Shown here piece after piece: positions 45,309 through 51,119 of a DNA stretch of 64,000 nt. The notes below the pieces were generated by a model that saw only the letters and a program-made list of their open reading frames with translations, was not told the origin of the DNA and did not search any database. Made by a program: the position numbers and the translations under genes. This stretch comes from Geminocystis sp. NIES-3708. Lineage in GTDB: Bacteria > Cyanobacteriota > Cyanobacteriia > Cyanobacteriales > Cyanobacteriaceae. Numbering within the stretch: the first letter of the stretch is position 1; each line of letters starts with the position of its first letter. Location of the stretch: contig NZ_AP014815.1 in assembly GCF_001548095.1 (NCBI RefSeq), forward strand, positions 3,657,656 through 3,721,655. Reading direction: 5' to 3'.

Positions 45309-45331
45309 AGAACACGTGAGTCAAATCAAAT

Positions 45332-45405
45332 GGGATTGTAGCTCAGCTGGTTAGAGCGTCCGCCTGTCACGCGGAAGGTCGCGGGTTCGAGTCCCGTCAG
45401 TCCCG
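45332..45405 (+). tRNA. tRNA-Asp (GUC anticodon), attachment site of the adjacent transposon
   Basis: The 74-base gene folds into a complete cloverleaf: acceptor GGGATTG/CAGTCCC with discriminator G, D arm GCTCAGCTGGTTAGAGC, anticodon arm CCGCC-TGTCACG-CGG with anticodon GTC, and T arm CGGG-TTCGAGT-CCCG. CCA is not encoded. The T-loop GTT (45385-45387) and the following 17 bases (45388-45404) serve as PAM and protospacer for the guide at 45539-45555, and the transposon end begins 60 bases after the PAM. The tRNA itself is intact. Confidence 0.96.
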
Positions 45406-45447
45406 TCTAATAAATCAATATGTTTATAGTTTATAAAATAATAGTGT

Positions 45448-45531
45448 TGTACAATAACAGATTATTTGTCATTGGTAACAGATTAGTGTCGTCTTAACAA
45501 ATTAAATGACGTGATAACCAGTTAATTTCAT
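45448..45531 (+). repeat. tRNA-proximal transposon end with TnsB-binding-type repeats
   Basis: After TGTACAA there are four spaced copies of the motif TAAC(A/C)-N-TTA-N-TGTC-like: 45455-45470, 45476-45490, 45495-45510 and 45515-45531. They are spaced about 20 bases apart. They resemble the repeats at 3281-3497 and at the far end (50937-51119). The guide spacer begins only about eight bases after the last copy. Confidence 0.75.
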
Positions 45532-45538
45532 CTAATTA

Positions 45539-45760
45539 GGAACTGACGGGACTCGCTTTCAATTCTCAAATAGAATTCTTCCTTGCTCGGAAGTTATTTG
45601 CTAACCGCTATAGCAGTACACTTAGATCTTTGTTGCTGGGAGTGCGTCTAGTTTCTATCCCCGTAGATAGTTAGCATCAGGGCAAGTAATTAGCAGGAGC
45701 AGAAAGCAAACTTCTAGGAAAAAGTAAACTACTCCTCATTTTCCATAGAACAGAGGTTAT
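45539..45760 (-). ncRNA. Cas12k tracrRNA-like RNA fused to a truncated repeat and homing spacer
   Basis: Read on the minus strand, the segment has landmarks I recall from the ShCAST tracrRNA in the same order: GCTTTCTG, then CCCTGATGCT, a short GATAG hairpin region, CACTCCCAGCAA, and TGTACTGCTATAGCGGTTA. Next come a CTTCC/GGAAG hairpin (45578-45593) and an AATTCT-ATTTG-AGAATT hairpin (45561-45577), which joins anti-repeat and repeat. The truncated repeat ends TTGAAAG (45556-45567 is repeat), and the next 17 bases (45539-45555) match the tRNA-Asp gene at 16 positions. The 5' end of the RNA is only estimated. No further repeats follow, so this is a single, naturally joined guide. Confidence 0.75.
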
Positions 45761-45945
45761 GAAAACTGGATCTACGGCACTGTTAATACTATAAACCCTA
45801 AAGAAGGTATTTTCTTATTTCAACATACCGTATTCGTTGAGTATCTAAGGATTAAACAACATTGAATAGTTACCTGAGCCATTGCTTACGTCATTGTTTA
45901 ATAAAATGTAATTGTATAATAGCAAATCATTTTATAATTCTGCTT

Positions 45946-46368
45946 ATGAAACAGGAATTATTTTTTAGTATTAAAGATATATCATTAATTACGGGTTGTT
46001 CCCTCCGGCAATTCCAGTATTGGAAGGAGAAGGAGATTATTGTGCCTTTTATTATGGGGACAGGTACGGGAAAGACAATCTACTATTCTTTTGTGGAGTT
46101 GGTAGAGGTGTCGGTAATGGTATATATGCTTTCTGTTGGTTTGAATTTAGAGATGGCACAAAAAATCCTCAATGATTTGAGGGAAAAAGAGCCATCATTT
46201 ACCGATGCGGACTTTAAGAAGCGTTTTATGGTAATTGCTCATGATGGTAGTGTTGAGTTATTGCCTTATCAACGGGAAGATGCGATCGCACTTTTAGAAG
46301 AGGGGAAGGCGATCGTGCCTTTGTGGATTGATCAAATTCATCAAAAATTAACAGAGAAGGTGGGTTGA
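45946..46368 (+). CDS. cvkR: MerR-type regulator resembling CvkR, the Cas V-K repressor
   Basis: The protein has 140 residues from the ATG at 45946; an upstream TTG start at 45862 gives a Cys-rich extension that I do not believe. The N-terminus is a MerR-type winged helix (SIKDISLITGCSLRQFQYWKEK with the GTGTGKTIYYSF wing). The rest (LNLEMAQKILNDL, LPYQREDAIALLEEGKAIVP) resembles CvkR proteins, which repress cas12k and sit beside the tracrRNA in V-K transposons. Here the divergent tracr-like RNA is still present on its left but cas12k is gone. It may now control the guide RNA or the R-M genes, or be a relic. Confidence 0.7.
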   Translation: MKQELFFSIKDISLITGCSLRQFQYWKEKEIIVPFIMGTGTGKTIYYSFVELVEVSVMVYMLSVGLNLEMAQKILNDLREKEPSFTDADFKKRFMVIAHDGSVELLPYQREDAIALLEEGKAIVPLWIDQIHQKLTEKVG

Positions 46369-46388
46369 AGTGAGCAAAAATGAATCTC

Positions 46389-46469
46389 GGTAGTCCTGTA
46401 GATGTAGTGATTTGAAAATGATTGGATAATAGTTTCAGAGCAGAAAATCACTACTTGTACACCACTACC
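46389..46469. repeat. 25-bp imperfect inverted repeat between cvkR and the first MTase
   Basis: Arms at 46389-46413 and 46445-46469 both start GGTAGT and end GTAGTGATTT when read inwards, with four mismatches in 25 positions. The loop is about 31 bases. The two adjoining genes converge here. There is no T-run on either side, so it is not a classical terminator; a regulator site or a trace of an inserted element is possible. Confidence 0.55.
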
Positions 46470-46511
46470 ATTTGATTTATTATCAATTGATTGCGCTTAA
46501 TAAATTCCATT

Positions 46512-47510
46512 TTAAGCACACTCAAGAGAGTATTTTTGTTTTTCTTCTTCTACTATTAAGTTAATTATTTGTTGTGAAATATGCCACATTAAAACAGGCG
46601 GAACAGCATTGCCAATCGCTTTATATTGACGATTTTCGGAAACCACATCTAATCTAAAATTATCAGGGAAAGACTGTATTCTAGCTGTTTCTCTTGGTGT
46701 GAAACGCCTATATAATTGACCTTCTTTTAAAACAGGATCTGTGCTATTTAAACTAACTTTGGCTAAATGAGCACTAATAGTATTACAAGGCTCATCAATA
46801 TTTTGTACCCTTCCTTTATTCATCGTTTCTTTTGCCTTTAGCATTCCATCAACTGCTTTCTGAGAAAAGAAATATTTATCTTCTATTTGCTCATCTAAAA
46901 CTAATTTAAGAGGTATTTTATTTCTGGTGGTTATTGGTTGAGGAAATTGAAATTTAAAACAATCTTCAAAATGTTTAAATCCGATAATAAAAACTCTTTC
47001 TCTTTTTTGAGGTATACCATAATCAGAGGCATTAAATACTTGATAAGAAATGTTATAACCGACTTTTTGAAATTCTTGAATAATCAAAGGAAAAGCCCTT
47101 TTTTGATTAGCGGATAAAATTCCTTTTACATTTTCAGCGATAAAAAATCTCGGCTGTTTTTCTTTTAAAATTCGACATATTTCAAAGAATAATTGACCTT
47201 TTTCATCTTTTATACCTAATCTAGGGGGATTCTGCGCAACAATAGAAAATGATTGACAAGGAAATCCGCCCATTAAAATATCGTGATTAGGTAGCTCTTT
47301 TTCATTAATGGTTTTTATATCCCCCAACAAACAATTATGTTGAAAATTTGCGTTATAAATTTCAACGGCAGAAGGATCATTATCGATAGCATAAACAATT
47401 TCTGTCGGCAATTTATGATAATTTTGGTTCAAGTATTTAAAATTACCTAGTATGCCCAAGTCCATGCCACCACAACCGCTAAAAAGTGATAATACTTTTA
47501 GTCTATCCAT
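46512..47510 (-). CDS. C5-cytosine DNA methyltransferase, cargo R-M system (third gene)
   Basis: The 332-residue enzyme shows VLSLFSGCGGMDLGI (motif I), GGFPCQSFSIV (catalytic motif IV), ENVKGIL (VI), PQKRERVFIIGF (VIII) and IGNAVPPVL (X). It is a compact C5-MTase with a short target-recognition region. It overlaps the end of the upstream nuclease gene by 13 bases and is the last gene of the three-gene operon in the transposon. Confidence 0.93.
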   Translation of the reverse strand: MDRLKVLSLFSGCGGMDLGILGNFKYLNQNYHKLPTEIVYAIDNDPSAVEIYNANFQHNCLLGDIKTINEKELPNHDILMGGFPCQSFSIVAQNPPRLGIKDEKGQLFFEICRILKEKQPRFFIAENVKGILSANQKRAFPLIIQEFQKVGYNISYQVFNASDYGIPQKRERVFIIGFKHFEDCFKFQFPQPITTRNKIPLKLVLDEQIEDKYFFSQKAVDGMLKAKETMNKGRVQNIDEPCNTISAHLAKVSLNSTDPVLKEGQLYRRFTPRETARIQSFPDNFRLDVVSENRQYKAIGNAVPPVLMWHISQQIINLIVEEEKQKYSLECA

Positions 47511-48916
47511 AATAATAATTGCTCTTTTTGAGAAGATTCCTCCGTAAATGTTATGTCAGCACCGTCTTTAGGTGACATTGTTATTTTATTAGACTTATAT
47601 AATCCAACTGGATCTTGAATTAAATGTAATTCTCTATTTATTTTTGATATTGCAAGTCGATAAACATAATATCTGTCTTTTAATGATTCTGCAGTATTCC
47701 ATTCATTCGGCGTTAAGTGAAAACTAAAAAAATTAATTTTTTTATTACTAATGGTTGTTTTTACTTCTATATATCTTTTTCTTTCATCAAGTTCTACAGA
47801 TTGAATATCATAACCAACAGCAAATTGTGTCGGAATTTTTTGAATTAGATGGAGTAAATCTTCTCTTTTTCCTAGTTTTATCCTCATTTTTTCATGTCCT
47901 AAAACTAATCCTTCTCCGAAATCACCAATTTCCTTTGTTTTTATTTGTACCCCTTGTTCAAGTTTGCTTTCAAATTCATTAATAGAGTCTAAAACCAAAT
48001 CTTGGTAAGTAGTTGAATCAACACCTAAATACTTATATAAATCTGTCTTGAAAATTTCTTGATCTAATTTAGAATTAACGAAATAAAACCAAGCATCATT
48101 TAATGATTTAATATCACTAATATTTAAGTTTAATTTTTTATAAAGAGGAATATAATCTAAAAATATTACTTCATTTTCAATAAAAGAGACAATCACCTCT
48201 TGATTCTTATTGTTTAGATAAAATTTATTGCCGTGACAAACTAATAAATCGGCAATAACCATGTAATCTAAAATATCACCTGCATATCTAATTACATCAC
48301 CTGTCCAATTATAATTAATATTATTTTTTCGATTATGAATGACTAAATATGCCGTATTTTTTGGTTTTCTGGGGTTATTTTGACGAGTTACCCGTAAATC
48401 GTTAAATATACAATGAGTGGCTTCTGCTTTATCTATGTAAAATCTACCTTCAGTTATTTTTTCGCCTTCTTGTAAGACTTTTATTAGGTAACTAACTGGT
48501 TTAAAAAGTATTCCTTGATTTATATAATCTAATATTTCATGAGGCTTTAAATAACCACCAGGATACTGAAAATAAAATAAAAAGTATTTAAAAAATTCTA
48601 CTAAATCCTGATTTTCGCTAAGTCTAAAAGCTAAGTTAGAAGGCTTACTTTTTTGATTTATAGAGTTGGTTTCAATTAATCCAAATAGAGCAGAAATTTC
48701 TGTCCTCCAATTATTAATAGTTTTATCTTTTTTGTTAGCATTTCCAGGGAATAATTTAATAGCATTATTCATAGCTTTCGCAAATTTATCAATTGGCATT
48801 TCTGACAAGTTACTTAAACAAGTTGCCATGTAAATTAAGACATTTTCAACATCATTTTTAAATCGAGGTCTAATTTGATGAAGTCTATAATAATATTTAT
48901 TAGGTATATGATACAT
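47498..48916 (-). CDS. Putative type II restriction endonuclease with DUF3883-like C-terminal domain
   Basis: The 472-residue protein lies between two C5-MTases, so it is probably their nuclease. Its C-terminal part (from about residue 330) resembles DUF3883: VGYDIQSVELDERKRYIEVKTT holds the D...ExK metal site (Asp ~371, Glu and Lys ~385-390), followed by FFSFHLTPNEWNTAE. The N-terminal ~300 residues contain no motif I know and may carry DNA recognition. The recognition site is unknown. It is separated from the upstream MTase by 18 bases. Confidence 0.65.
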   Translation of the reverse strand: MYHIPNKYYYRLHQIRPRFKNDVENVLIYMATCLSNLSEMPIDKFAKAMNNAIKLFPGNANKKDKTINNWRTEISALFGLIETNSINQKSKPSNLAFRLSENQDLVEFFKYFLFYFQYPGGYLKPHEILDYINQGILFKPVSYLIKVLQEGEKITEGRFYIDKAEATHCIFNDLRVTRQNNPRKPKNTAYLVIHNRKNNINYNWTGDVIRYAGDILDYMVIADLLVCHGNKFYLNNKNQEVIVSFIENEVIFLDYIPLYKKLNLNISDIKSLNDAWFYFVNSKLDQEIFKTDLYKYLGVDSTTYQDLVLDSINEFESKLEQGVQIKTKEIGDFGEGLVLGHEKMRIKLGKREDLLHLIQKIPTQFAVGYDIQSVELDERKRYIEVKTTISNKKINFFSFHLTPNEWNTAESLKDRYYVYRLAISKINRELHLIQDPVGLYKSNKITMSPKDGADITFTEESSQKEQLLLWID

Positions 48917-48934
48917 AATTATTTTTTTGTTTTC

Positions 48935-50011
48935 TTACAAAAAATTATAAATAGATTCTGCTAGGGCTTTCGCTAATAAAGGAGGTACTGCATTACCCAC
49001 TTGTCTATTTTGATTTGTTTTGTTGCCCATAAAGCGAAAAGAATCAGGGAAAGACTGTAATCTTGCGTGTTCTCTAACTGTAGGAACTCGATTATATTTA
49101 TAGTGAAAATAATGACGATGTCCTGTATCAATTGTATTAGAAGGTTTTTTGCTGTGATACCTTGTCCATGCAATATTAAAATTTCGTGTTTTTTGTAATT
49201 CTAGTGGTAAATTTTTATAATTACCACCTTCGGGAACAAGTTTAATAGTTTCAATTATCTTAGGACTGTGTTTTGTTGCAATGTGATTGTAGATTAACTC
49301 TGAATTATGTCGCATTAGTTTTTGATATTCCGATTCTGGATTAGTAGGATAATTCATCCCTTCATAACCTACTTCATTAATTAAAGAAGGTAAATCAGAT
49401 ATAGCCATCTCACAAGTAATATAATCTTTTTCCTTTAATTTGACTTCGGGATAAATAAAATTTTTTCCATATATATTTCCTATAAAAAAAACTCTTTTTC
49501 GTATTTGAGGAACGCCATAATCTGAAGCTAGTAAAATTTTATCTTGAACGTGATAGCCCAAAATATTCATTTTTTCTTTGAATAATTCTTTAGCTTTACC
49601 TTTGTATAAATTAGTAAAACCAGTAACGTTTTCCAGCACAAACATTTTAGGTCTTAAATACTTTACAAATCGAATAAACTCTAAAAATAAATTATTTCTA
49701 TCATCTTTAAATTCTCTTTTTCCCGCGATAGAAAAACCTTGACACGGTGGTCCACCTATCACTAAATCTATCGAACCATATTTTTCAATTATTGATTCAG
49801 GATTAATATTTCTTATATCTTCATGGAAAATACTAATACTAGGCTTGTTAAATTTCAGTGTTTCTAATGCTTTTTTATCATGATCAATTGCTAATTTTAT
49901 TTCAAATTTATTAGTTAATTCAAAACCATAGCTAAGACCTCCACAGCCAGAGAATAAATCTACAACAGTGTATTTTTTATGTTTTATTTGTTTTTGAATA
50001 TTTATTTGCAC
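48935..50011 (-). CDS. C5-cytosine DNA methyltransferase, cargo R-M system (first gene)
   Basis: The 358-residue enzyme has TVVDLFSGCGGLSYGFE (motif I), IGGPPCQGFSIAGKRE (IV), ENVTGF (VI), PQIRKRVFFIGN (VIII) and VGNAVPPLLA (X). A GYEGMNYPTNPESEYQ segment and RHYFHYKYNR belong to its variable region. It is the first of the operon MTase-REase-MTase and starts about 75 bases from the tniQ remnant. It is more like the 412-residue MTase at 18392 than like its own operon partner in the GGPPCQGFS motif. Confidence 0.93.
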   Translation of the reverse strand: MQINIQKQIKHKKYTVVDLFSGCGGLSYGFELTNKFEIKLAIDHDKKALETLKFNKPSISIFHEDIRNINPESIIEKYGSIDLVIGGPPCQGFSIAGKREFKDDRNNLFLEFIRFVKYLRPKMFVLENVTGFTNLYKGKAKELFKEKMNILGYHVQDKILLASDYGVPQIRKRVFFIGNIYGKNFIYPEVKLKEKDYITCEMAISDLPSLINEVGYEGMNYPTNPESEYQKLMRHNSELIYNHIATKHSPKIIETIKLVPEGGNYKNLPLELQKTRNFNIAWTRYHSKKPSNTIDTGHRHYFHYKYNRVPTVREHARLQSFPDSFRFMGNKTNQNRQVGNAVPPLLAKALAESIYNFL

Positions 50012-50086
50012 AGATCTTGATTGATTGGGGCAATATCATTGTATGTTAATTTTTGGTTAATATTAACTATCTTTCTTCATCTCGAT

Positions 50087-50385
50087 CTAGGCAAAAGGAA
50101 TAAAACTAGGAAACTTGAATCTTGCCCCACAATTGGGACATTCCGATAACAGTTTCATTTGATGTCGATCATGCCATGCACTGATCCGCTTTGCTGCACG
50201 CACCTATAAATCTCCTTATACTGCCATTCCATTTTATGATATGGTTTGTTTTTCCCCATAACAAACAGAACAAAGACGAATGAGAGTCATTTTCATAGGG
50301 GCAGAAGGAAACATTGTTTGTAAGGTTGCCATTTTTACTTGTAGAATCTCACTTAACTTCTGTAACTCTTCAGGGGAAGTAGACT
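50087..50385 (-). pseudogene. tniQ: C-terminal half of a V-K tniQ gene, frameshifted
   Basis: In two frames of the minus strand the translated pieces match the second half of the intact tniQ at 6067-6570: PEELQKLSEILQVKMATLQ with MKMTLIRL and VCYGE, then KMEWQYKEIYRC, and finally MKLLSECPNCGARFKFP. At least two frameshifts separate them. The 5' half is missing and the fragment is fused to the tnsB remnant, so it cannot give a working protein. Confidence 0.8.
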
Positions 50386-50389
50386 GAGA

Positions 50390-50885
50390 ACCTCTCCAAC
50401 CAGAACTTCTAATTCTTTTTTATTTTCTTTCTCCTCAATAATATGATTCAAAATTCGATAAATAATCATGTGAGAGGGTTGTTTAATATCCTAATTTTTG
50501 GGTTGGGCAACTGCGCGTAAATAAACTTGTTTAGGAGTCATTGATTTACTACCTTTGTTTCCTTCACGATAGGTTTTAACAATGAAATCCTGTAAGCGTC
50601 GATCAATAGGATAAAAACCTTTATCGGTTCGATTATTTTGAGCAATACCGACTAAACCATTTTCTTGCCATTGCTTAACGTATCTTTGGATAGTTCTAAC
50701 TGACTTATTCAATTGAGTTGATGCTTGTTTCAACTTTTCTCCGTAGGTTTTTCGTACAGCTACGCTGTGCTTTCGGTGGCTCAAGGTTGAAGTAAATCTT
50801 CAATGAAATGAGCGATTTTTTGTTCTTCAGGAGAAAGTTGGGAGATCAACTCTGGAGAATCAGAAAATTGATCATCGATGGTCAT
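50390..50885 (-). pseudogene. tnsB: N-terminal remnant of a V-K tnsB gene
   Basis: From an ATG at 50885 the pieces read MTIDDQFSDSPELISQLSPE, EDLLQP, then after a short insertion TYGEKLKQASTQLNKSVRTIQRYVKQW and DFIVKTYREGNKGS, a TAG stop, and PSHMIIYRILNHIIEEKE. These match the first ~165 residues of the TnsB at 3548. The catalytic domain is absent. The insertion near 50750-50785 contains GCTACGCTGTGC, a type of short repeat seen in many cyanobacteria. One deletion seems to have removed the rest of tnsB, all of tnsC and the start of tniQ. Confidence 0.8.
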
Positions 50886-50936
50886 AACGTTTCCAATAAT
50901 ATTCAATAAAATTACAATAGTTTTATACTAATTTTA

Positions 50937-51119
50937 AGACATTTAATTTGTTATTTCTAGGGAAAATGACACTTAATTTGTTAATCTAGTTTAAGGTGCG
51001 ATCAAGATCATCTTTTGTGGAGTTCTGGGGTATAATTATTATTGCCATATAAAGATTTGAAGAGTCTTATTATTGGACGACACTAATTCATTATAACGTC
51101 ATATATTTGTTATTGTACA
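50937..51119 (-). repeat. tnsB-proximal transposon end with TnsB-binding-type repeats
   Basis: Read inwards on the minus strand, the end is TGTACAATAACA followed by motifs AACAAATATATGACG, GAATTAGTGTCG and, further in, two copies of AACAAATTAA(G/A)TGTC near 50937-50985. The arrangement, with close copies at the tip and a second pair after a gap of about 100 bases, fits the more extended left end of V-K transposons. Confidence 0.7.

Follow-up and report, generated by a model that had tools for sequence, protein, structure and literature searches.

Does a type V-K (Cas12k) transposon need two RNAs to home to a tRNA gene, or can one gene carry both the scaffold and the guide? These elements are described as having a homing repeat (R*), one truncated repeat that in most cases stands well apart from the CRISPR array, with a 17-nt anchor spacer and a GTN PAM; the target is usually a tRNA outside the left end, with 46-82 nt from PAM to element end (both from section 6 of PMC9938897). 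The question is raised by a minus-strand locus next to tRNA-Asp in a 64,000-nt stretch of the Geminocystis sp. NIES-3708 genome (hereafter the window), where a tracrRNA-like sequence is continuous with a truncated repeat and a spacer. We consider here whether this fused unit is a natural single-guide RNA.

A tracrRNA copy continuous with a homing spacer

The features of the locus are collected in Table 1. Read from the sequence and re-measured, the fused guide runs on the minus strand from 45780 to 45539 as one contiguous 242-nt unit of tracrRNA, hairpin, GAAAG and 17-nt spacer: GTGCCG...CTTCC-GAGCAA-GGAAG-AATTCT-ATTTG-AGAATT-GAAAG-CGAGTCCCGTCAGTTCC. It has the truncated repeat (AGAATTGAAAG) followed by 17 nt that is typical of V-K homing spacers; R*, usually but not invariably a single unit apart from the array, is here continuous with a copy of the tracrRNA. 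Judged from the DNA and from predicted pairing, a single unbroken gene thus encodes scaffold and guide, and the duplex closes in cis. An earlier, sequence-only reading of this DNA had described an unbroken run through an AATTCT/AGAATT hairpin to a short repeat and a 17-nt spacer, and this description is correct to the base. It had also likened the locus to a V-K tracrRNA. Indeed, most of the fused locus can be aligned with the canonical tracrRNA beside cas12k in the same genome, and the covariance model described below picks up tracrRNAs beside Cas12k genes.

Table 1. Features of the locus and of the surrounding element, in window positions.
Feature	Position	Strand	Basis or remark
tRNA-Asp (GTC), attachment gene	45331..45407	+	ARAGORN, Rfam tRNA
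GTT PAM (45385-45387) and 17-nt protospacer (45388-45404)	45385..45404	+	sequence, genome-wide pattern search
Left end: TGTACA terminus and V-K end repeats (inner limit approximate)	45448..45537		similar ends in relatives
17-nt homing spacer	45539..45555	-	16/17 to tRNA-Asp
Truncated repeat AGAATT-GAAAG, 5-nt loop and anti-repeat arm AATTCT (predicted natural single-guide hairpin)	45556..45577	-	sequence
tracrRNA 3' hairpin CTTCC-GAGCAA-GGAAG	45578..45593	-	sequence
tracrRNA body of fused guide	45594..45780	-	alignments, tree
Possible -10 box TATAGT	45788..45793	-	by eye, inference
CRISPR repeat remnant, 29 of 37 nt	45796..45824	-	just upstream of guide
cas12k start remnant MAQVTIQCCLI, about 11 codons	45850..45882	-	upstream of repeat remnant
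CvkR-like MerR regulator, open frame, homology from 45916	45862..46368	+	71% identity over 150 residues to CvkR of the 2554-kb element
Cargo: cytosine-5 DNA methyltransferase	46512..47510	-	homology
Cargo: restriction endonuclease, BpuJI_N and NOV_C domains	47498..48916	-	domains
Cargo: second cytosine-5 DNA methyltransferase	48935..50011	-	homology
tniQ C-terminal remnant, 54% identity	50072..50377	-	tblastn
tnsB N-terminal remnant, broken, three pieces, 58-71% identity	50384..50885	-	tblastn
Right end, closing with TGTACA (inner limit approximate)	51040..51119		DNA search and end comparison

The reported match of the spacer to tRNA-Asp positions 45388-45404 (16/17, beside a GTT PAM) was upheld on re-measurement, the single mismatch being at position 15 (guide T, gene C). 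The protospacer thus lies in a tRNA gene just outside the left end of the element. That end had been placed 60 bp after the target, which also held: TGTACA starts at 45448, 60 nt from the protospacer start and 63 nt from the first PAM base, within the range reported for V-K homing. When the genome was searched for PAM plus spacer with up to three mismatches, the matches were the tRNA-Asp target, the guide and a single further site, which has three mismatches.

A TATAAT box stands at the place corresponding to the putative TATAGT -10 box in L010, L065, L067 and L077. A promoter scan of 45400-46100 called no site just upstream of the guide; it called two minus-strand sites, at 45957 and beyond, a count not above that in shuffled sequences. 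Upstream of the guide, no exact copy of the CvkR operator motif, as given in the published text available to us, was seen by eye. Rfam at the gathering score found two tRNAs and nothing else in the window; a lax threshold added a weak CRISPR-DR25 match on the opposite strand (45556-45581, E 0.13) and three implausible others. Plasmid and phage records searched in 'distant' mode contained no match to 45430-45800, and one strict 27-letter pattern had no exact match in IMG/VR.

The window element as an apparent deletion derivative

The guide lies within a 5.7-kb derivative of a type V-K transposon (45448-51119) that adjoins tRNA-Asp and has V-K type ends on both sides. Set against a complete type V-K CAST, this element has the ends and a CvkR regulator; cas12k is reduced to its start region, tnsB and tniQ to fragments and the CRISPR array to a 29-nt repeat remnant, and tblastn over the element gave no tnsC or cas12k match at E <= 0.01. 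By its gene content it is a non-autonomous derivative. The sequence-only reading had stated that there is no array: no CRISPR array is left, but 29 of the 37 nt of one repeat persist at 45796-45824. Since the start of cas12k and then this repeat remnant stand upstream of the guide, one deletion from early cas12k to the last repeat apparently left the guide stranded behind what had been the start of cas12k.

The element also carries restriction-modification cargo (46512-50011), a BpuJI_N/NOV_C endonuclease flanked by two cytosine-5 methyltransferases, all three frames being open. No clean 5-bp target duplication was seen at the window element, where the 5-mers directly outside the ends differ by eye; they also differ at the other eight elements compared (for one of which, G056a, the second end displayed in the comparison is not its true end), and G404 has GCTTC on both flanks with a 1-nt offset. 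As regards an empty site, the right flank of the window element had no match in the stretch beyond tRNA-Asp in four other genomes of the genus. Downstream of tRNA-Asp at locus L214 (G392), we noticed a CAST-like end sequence that by eye resembles the right end of the window element and is likely what remains of a previous insertion there.

Two other V-K elements were found in the same genome. A DNA search located an 87% identical stretch, holding a fused unit, at 2554 kb. It belongs to a V-K element beside tRNA-Arg(ACG) with tnsB (interrupted), tnsC, tniQ, cargo, CvkR and cas12k (two in-frame stops), after which come a canonical tracrRNA, an array and, last, the fused unit, whose spacer matches tRNA-Arg(ACG) at 16/17. 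The element at 870 kb encodes an open Cas12k of a different branch and has a split tniQ and a separated R* (15/17 to tRNA-Val). No complete transposition gene set was seen in this genome.

The window unit might therefore be a dead relic, with a guide that has merely not yet eroded, given that cas12k, tnsC and most of tnsB and tniQ are gone from its element, that no complete gene set was seen in the genome and that its -10-like box reads TATAGT, not TATAAT. Yet the hairpin is intact, the spacer still matches at 16/17, the CvkR and the three restriction-modification frames are open and the element ends are present. We consider the odds on this reading about even; it applies to this one copy and does not conflict with the explanation favoured for fused units in general.

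Recurrence of fused units in the order

The Cas12k profile NF038191 matched in 45 of 386 genomes taken from the phylum at E <= 0.001, over its cut-off in 37. Among 42 loci compared (40 downstream regions, L010 and the window), 9 were fused, 25 had a separated R* and 8 had no R* by the search rule. Fused loci scored 161-275, while three separated loci (L043, L071 and L078, at 40, 38 and 43) exceeded their shuffles slightly and stayed well short of that range. Because MAFFT, run on the nine units found first, misplaced the long-loop hairpins, a covariance model of the 90-nt 3' module was built from seven short-loop fused units. Its matches, ordinary tracrRNAs among them, occur in 6 of 15 genomes of the family and 68 of 388 genomes of the order.

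The sequence-only reading had proposed to look for the fused form in related genomes and to compare the locus with tracrRNAs by covariance model. Both came out in its favour: the model of the fused 3' part also finds tracrRNAs next to Cas12k genes, and a regular-expression script applied to the flanks of the model matches, which may miss some units, classified 26 distinct fused units in 21 of the 388 order genomes, own genome included. These come from 27 classified rows, with L137 dropped as a false parse and the identical L133 and L134 counted once, and they fall in families f1, f8, f11, f53, f47 and f5. Because the model leans to f1-like units and the script can miss units, 26 is probably a lower bound. 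Geminocystis sp. GBBB08 has the same hairpin, and its Cas12k piece is 86% identical to that of the 2554-kb element. Seven f1 units show a mean column identity of 90%, the distal spacer differing according to the tRNA. At L050 (G245), a V-K element with repeats and R*, we saw by eye hardly any tracrRNA sequence after cas12k.

Most spacers of fused units match the adjacent tRNA

For 21 of the 26 fused units, the flank immediately downstream contains a match to the spacer at 15-17 of 17 positions beside a GTN PAM, which the search rule itself required. ARAGORN called a tRNA at the target in 20 of these 21 (the exception being L086), and 13 isoacceptors are represented: Asp, Arg-ACG, Arg-TCT, Leu-GAG, Leu-TAG, Leu-TAA, Thr, Phe, Ser, Val-TAC, Val-GAC, Tyr and Asn. 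Matches are weak at L079 (13/17) and L110 (12/17), and no adjacent target was found for L067, L133 and L135 (3/26). L133 has no site in its genome at up to two mismatches; the best other site for L067, with two mismatches in the 20-letter pattern, is a tRNA-Leu(TAG) occupied by the fused-unit element L088. The V-K element at L067/L198 (G056:C1, about 1.52 Mb) has no tRNA called beside it. At the off-site copy G056b, the only intact array spacer fails to match the flank (best 10/17).

Nearly all fused spacers of f1, f11 and f53 begin with CGARTC or CAARTC after a GTT PAM, which corresponds to the conserved tRNA T-arm; as read from these spacers, target specificity sits in their distal half. Since this motif is common to many tRNAs, it could be argued that chance or a shared tRNA-derived fragment explains the 17-nt match, with no guide function. 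However, whole 17-mers match the adjacent tRNA, beyond the T-arm; shuffled spacers under the same rule reached at least 13/17 in only 1 of 5400 trials over 27 loci; and the own genome, the guide itself aside, has no other site at up to two mismatches. A chance match is rejected by the shuffled-spacer control. This control and the own-genome search also contradict, at the level of sequence, a case that the sequence-only reading had named as a refutation, a 17-nt match shared by unrelated copies of a tRNA-derived fragment, and we regard such an explanation as next to impossible.

Nor is the fused RNA at all likely to be mainly regulatory, holding Cas12k on the tRNA gene or a promoter. The precedent would be tracr-L of Streptococcus pyogenes, a natural single guide in type II-A that, in the available text of PMC11417352, represses a cas promoter. 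The 17-nt match here, however, adjoins the element end at the insertion spacing reported in the literature, and the target is the site beside the element in 21 of 26 units.

Guide and gene differ at 18 positions over 22 fused units, with guide T against gene C in 11 and guide G against gene A in 3 (related copies, not independent). Among 25 separated R* units, the same wobble-compatible mismatches make up 4 of 14. A guide U or G could cover two tRNA alleles.

Gene-complete elements and probable loss of the array

Five examined elements have open tnsB, tnsC, tniQ, cvkR and cas12k (G145, G404, G056b, G056a and G368). In G145, a canonical tracrRNA and five repeats accompany a fused unit with a 17/17 target; G404 and G056b also have a canonical tracrRNA besides the fused unit, and in G056b an insertion interrupts the array. 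In G056a and G368 the fused unit is the sole guide. G187 (split cas12k), G109 (broken genes) and G054 (no tns gene found within the 39.8 kb examined) are incomplete. That tracrRNA and truncated repeat form one sequence, as the sequence-only reading had it, is confirmed, with one refinement: because a canonical tracrRNA lies upstream in 12 of the 26 fused units and in three of the five gene-complete elements, the fused unit is often an addition and not a replacement.

No second tracr-like sequence was found in L066 (G056a), L079 (G109) and L053 (G368) over 5.2-5.3 kb from the cas12k end on. In L066, the aligned stretch begins with 88 nt that agree at every base with the canonical tracrRNA of a sister element in that genome, and the remainder follows the fused copy. 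L079 shows the same mosaic relative to G187, with two differences in the first part and the switch at a similar place. The simplest reading of these sequences is that the array was lost twice, in G056a and G109, by recombination between two tracr copies.

Predicted pairing of the joining stem favours cis

With the joining stem taken at its fixed place, 75 of 84 cells are paired over 14 distinct arm pairs; re-dealing the arms in 2000 trials gave a mean of 59.2 and a maximum of 70, so none reached 75. The stem sequence varies among fused units and its pairing is kept. Pairing in cis and in trans could be compared in 8 of the 12 elements with an upstream canonical tracrRNA, those that were parsable, using the better of two offsets. 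The fused R* pairs at 4-6 of 6 positions with its own arm versus 2-4 of 6 with the canonical tracrRNA of the element, the own arm being better in 8/8; thus, by predicted pairing, the fused guide has shifted towards pairing in cis. In the same eight elements, array repeat ends pair at 5-6 of 6 positions with the canonical tracrRNA and at 4-6 of 6 with the fused arm (one stray motif match set aside). Because array repeat ends can still pair with the fused arm, the predicted separation of dual-RNA and fused guide systems is not strict. Of the 26 units, 15 have a joining loop of 3-7 nt, and the loops of others reach about 60 nt; these lengths depend on how the stem is drawn.

These comparisons bear on the proposal that the truncated repeat and spacer act as an ordinary short crRNA, pairing in trans with the canonical tracrRNA, and that the preceding tracr-like sequence is a relic. 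A separated R* is the usual V-K arrangement, both in section 6 of PMC9938897 and in 25 of our 42 loci. Nevertheless, R* pairs better in cis in all eight parsed elements, three loci (L066, L079 and L053) have no other tracr-like sequence in the stretch examined, and the tracr body is conserved at the column identity given above; we find the proposal improbable.

Origins of the fused form

In a Cas12k tree of 54 rows, 14 are labelled fused, ten of them in one clade (97/91) and separate cases elsewhere. The fused label requires 4 changes on this tree, 3 of them forced by well-supported branches, versus a mean of 12.6 for shuffled labels (0/500 as low); several of the 40 rows labelled separate (among them L174-L178, L188 and L190) are merely not known to be linked to a fused unit, and the tree omits eight short or duplicate rows, rows below 250 residues and the fused-linked Cas12k of G187, G574 and G398. 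In the tree of tracr bodies, which has several weak nodes and retains one spurious parse on a very long branch (L126_tracr_504), the f1 fused units, nine in all, cluster together (100/99) and away from the canonical tracrRNAs of their own elements, whereas f8 fused units join an f8 canonical tracrRNA (100/93). With the caveat of the weak nodes, these contrasting groupings point to a single older fused lineage and one or more independent origins.

A proposed homing mechanism

All together, we favour, with a probability of roughly 0.8, the reading that Cas12k has in the fused unit a natural single-guide RNA reserved for homing. Fusion, target match, PAM, spacing, stem pairing, recurrence, coexistence with a canonical tracrRNA and mosaic array-less forms are all seen in the DNA; from them we infer transcription of the unit, its loading on Cas12k and transposition directed by it. 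Fusion in the DNA is compatible with cleavage of the RNA, which may occur between the tracr and repeat-spacer halves.

In the proposed scheme, a second copy of the tracrRNA gene would have become continuous with the truncated homing repeat, and the anti-repeat:repeat duplex, normally formed between two RNAs, would be closed by a loop into a cis hairpin with the 17-nt spacer next to it. Cas12k with the fused guide would bind the 3' part of the tRNA gene beside a GTN PAM and direct TnsB, TnsC and TniQ, so that the element would insert about 60 nt downstream without breaking the tRNA gene. Elements that also have a canonical tracrRNA and an array would use different guide genes for homing and for jumps directed by the array. 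Because its element has lost cas12k and the transposase genes, the window copy would be usable solely by proteins supplied in trans.

A broader scenario may tentatively be suggested, which we hold at somewhat under even odds. A V-K clade would have split its lifestyles, with the dual RNA (tracrRNA and array) serving mobile targets and a single-guide gene with its own promoter serving homing, partly shielded by cis pairing. Recombination between tracr copies would delete the array and leave a transposon that can only home, to a site fixed by a single exchangeable 17-nt word, and deletion derivatives such as the window element would persist as guide-bearing cargo islands, movable in trans by a complete V-K system.

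Single guides for Cas12k, which came from engineering, appear to have been made by evolution more than once. The natural loop and stem solutions are candidates for direct trial in V-K genome-insertion tools. How V-K elements separate chromosomal homing from array-guided jumping becomes a testable question, and in elements with both guide kinds each RNA gene can be deleted separately.

Relation to known systems

As read from its sequence, the fused unit varies the known V-K homing (anchor) spacer by its continuity with a tracrRNA, and an earlier description is possible. Rybarski reportedly mentioned 'minimal V-K systems' in 2021. In TnpB and IscB, nuclease systems of IS200/IS605 elements, one omega RNA likewise carries scaffold and guide, and we know of no tracr:repeat ancestry for it. 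The single guide engineered for ShCAST is a tracrRNA joined to a crRNA. As presented in the available text of PMC9876797, it is used with Cas12k, the same effector type as here, but it is man-made, while the natural loops vary in length.

The available parts of PMC9938897, PMC11406308 (Annual Review) and PMC11656645 do not mention fusion with a tracrRNA, and a literature search by titles and abstract openings, with the main homing papers outside its scope, returned no report of a natural or fused V-K guide. Array-less CASTs with a delocalized crRNA alone are mentioned in a BMC Biology review (PMC11656645); they resemble the present elements in having a homing guide outside the array and differ in that the description available there lacks a tracrRNA fusion. 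Like the fused unit, tracr-L joins tracrRNA and guide in one natural RNA molecule, but, in the text cited above, it belongs to a Cas9 system and represses a cas promoter, and is not a homing guide of a transposon. With the V-K anchor spacer and its R*, as set out in section 6 of PMC9938897, the fused unit shares the 17-nt spacer, truncated repeat, GTN PAM and tRNA target, here with 63 nt to the element end; it differs in that R* here forms the 3' side of a hairpin that runs on from a copy of the tracrRNA.
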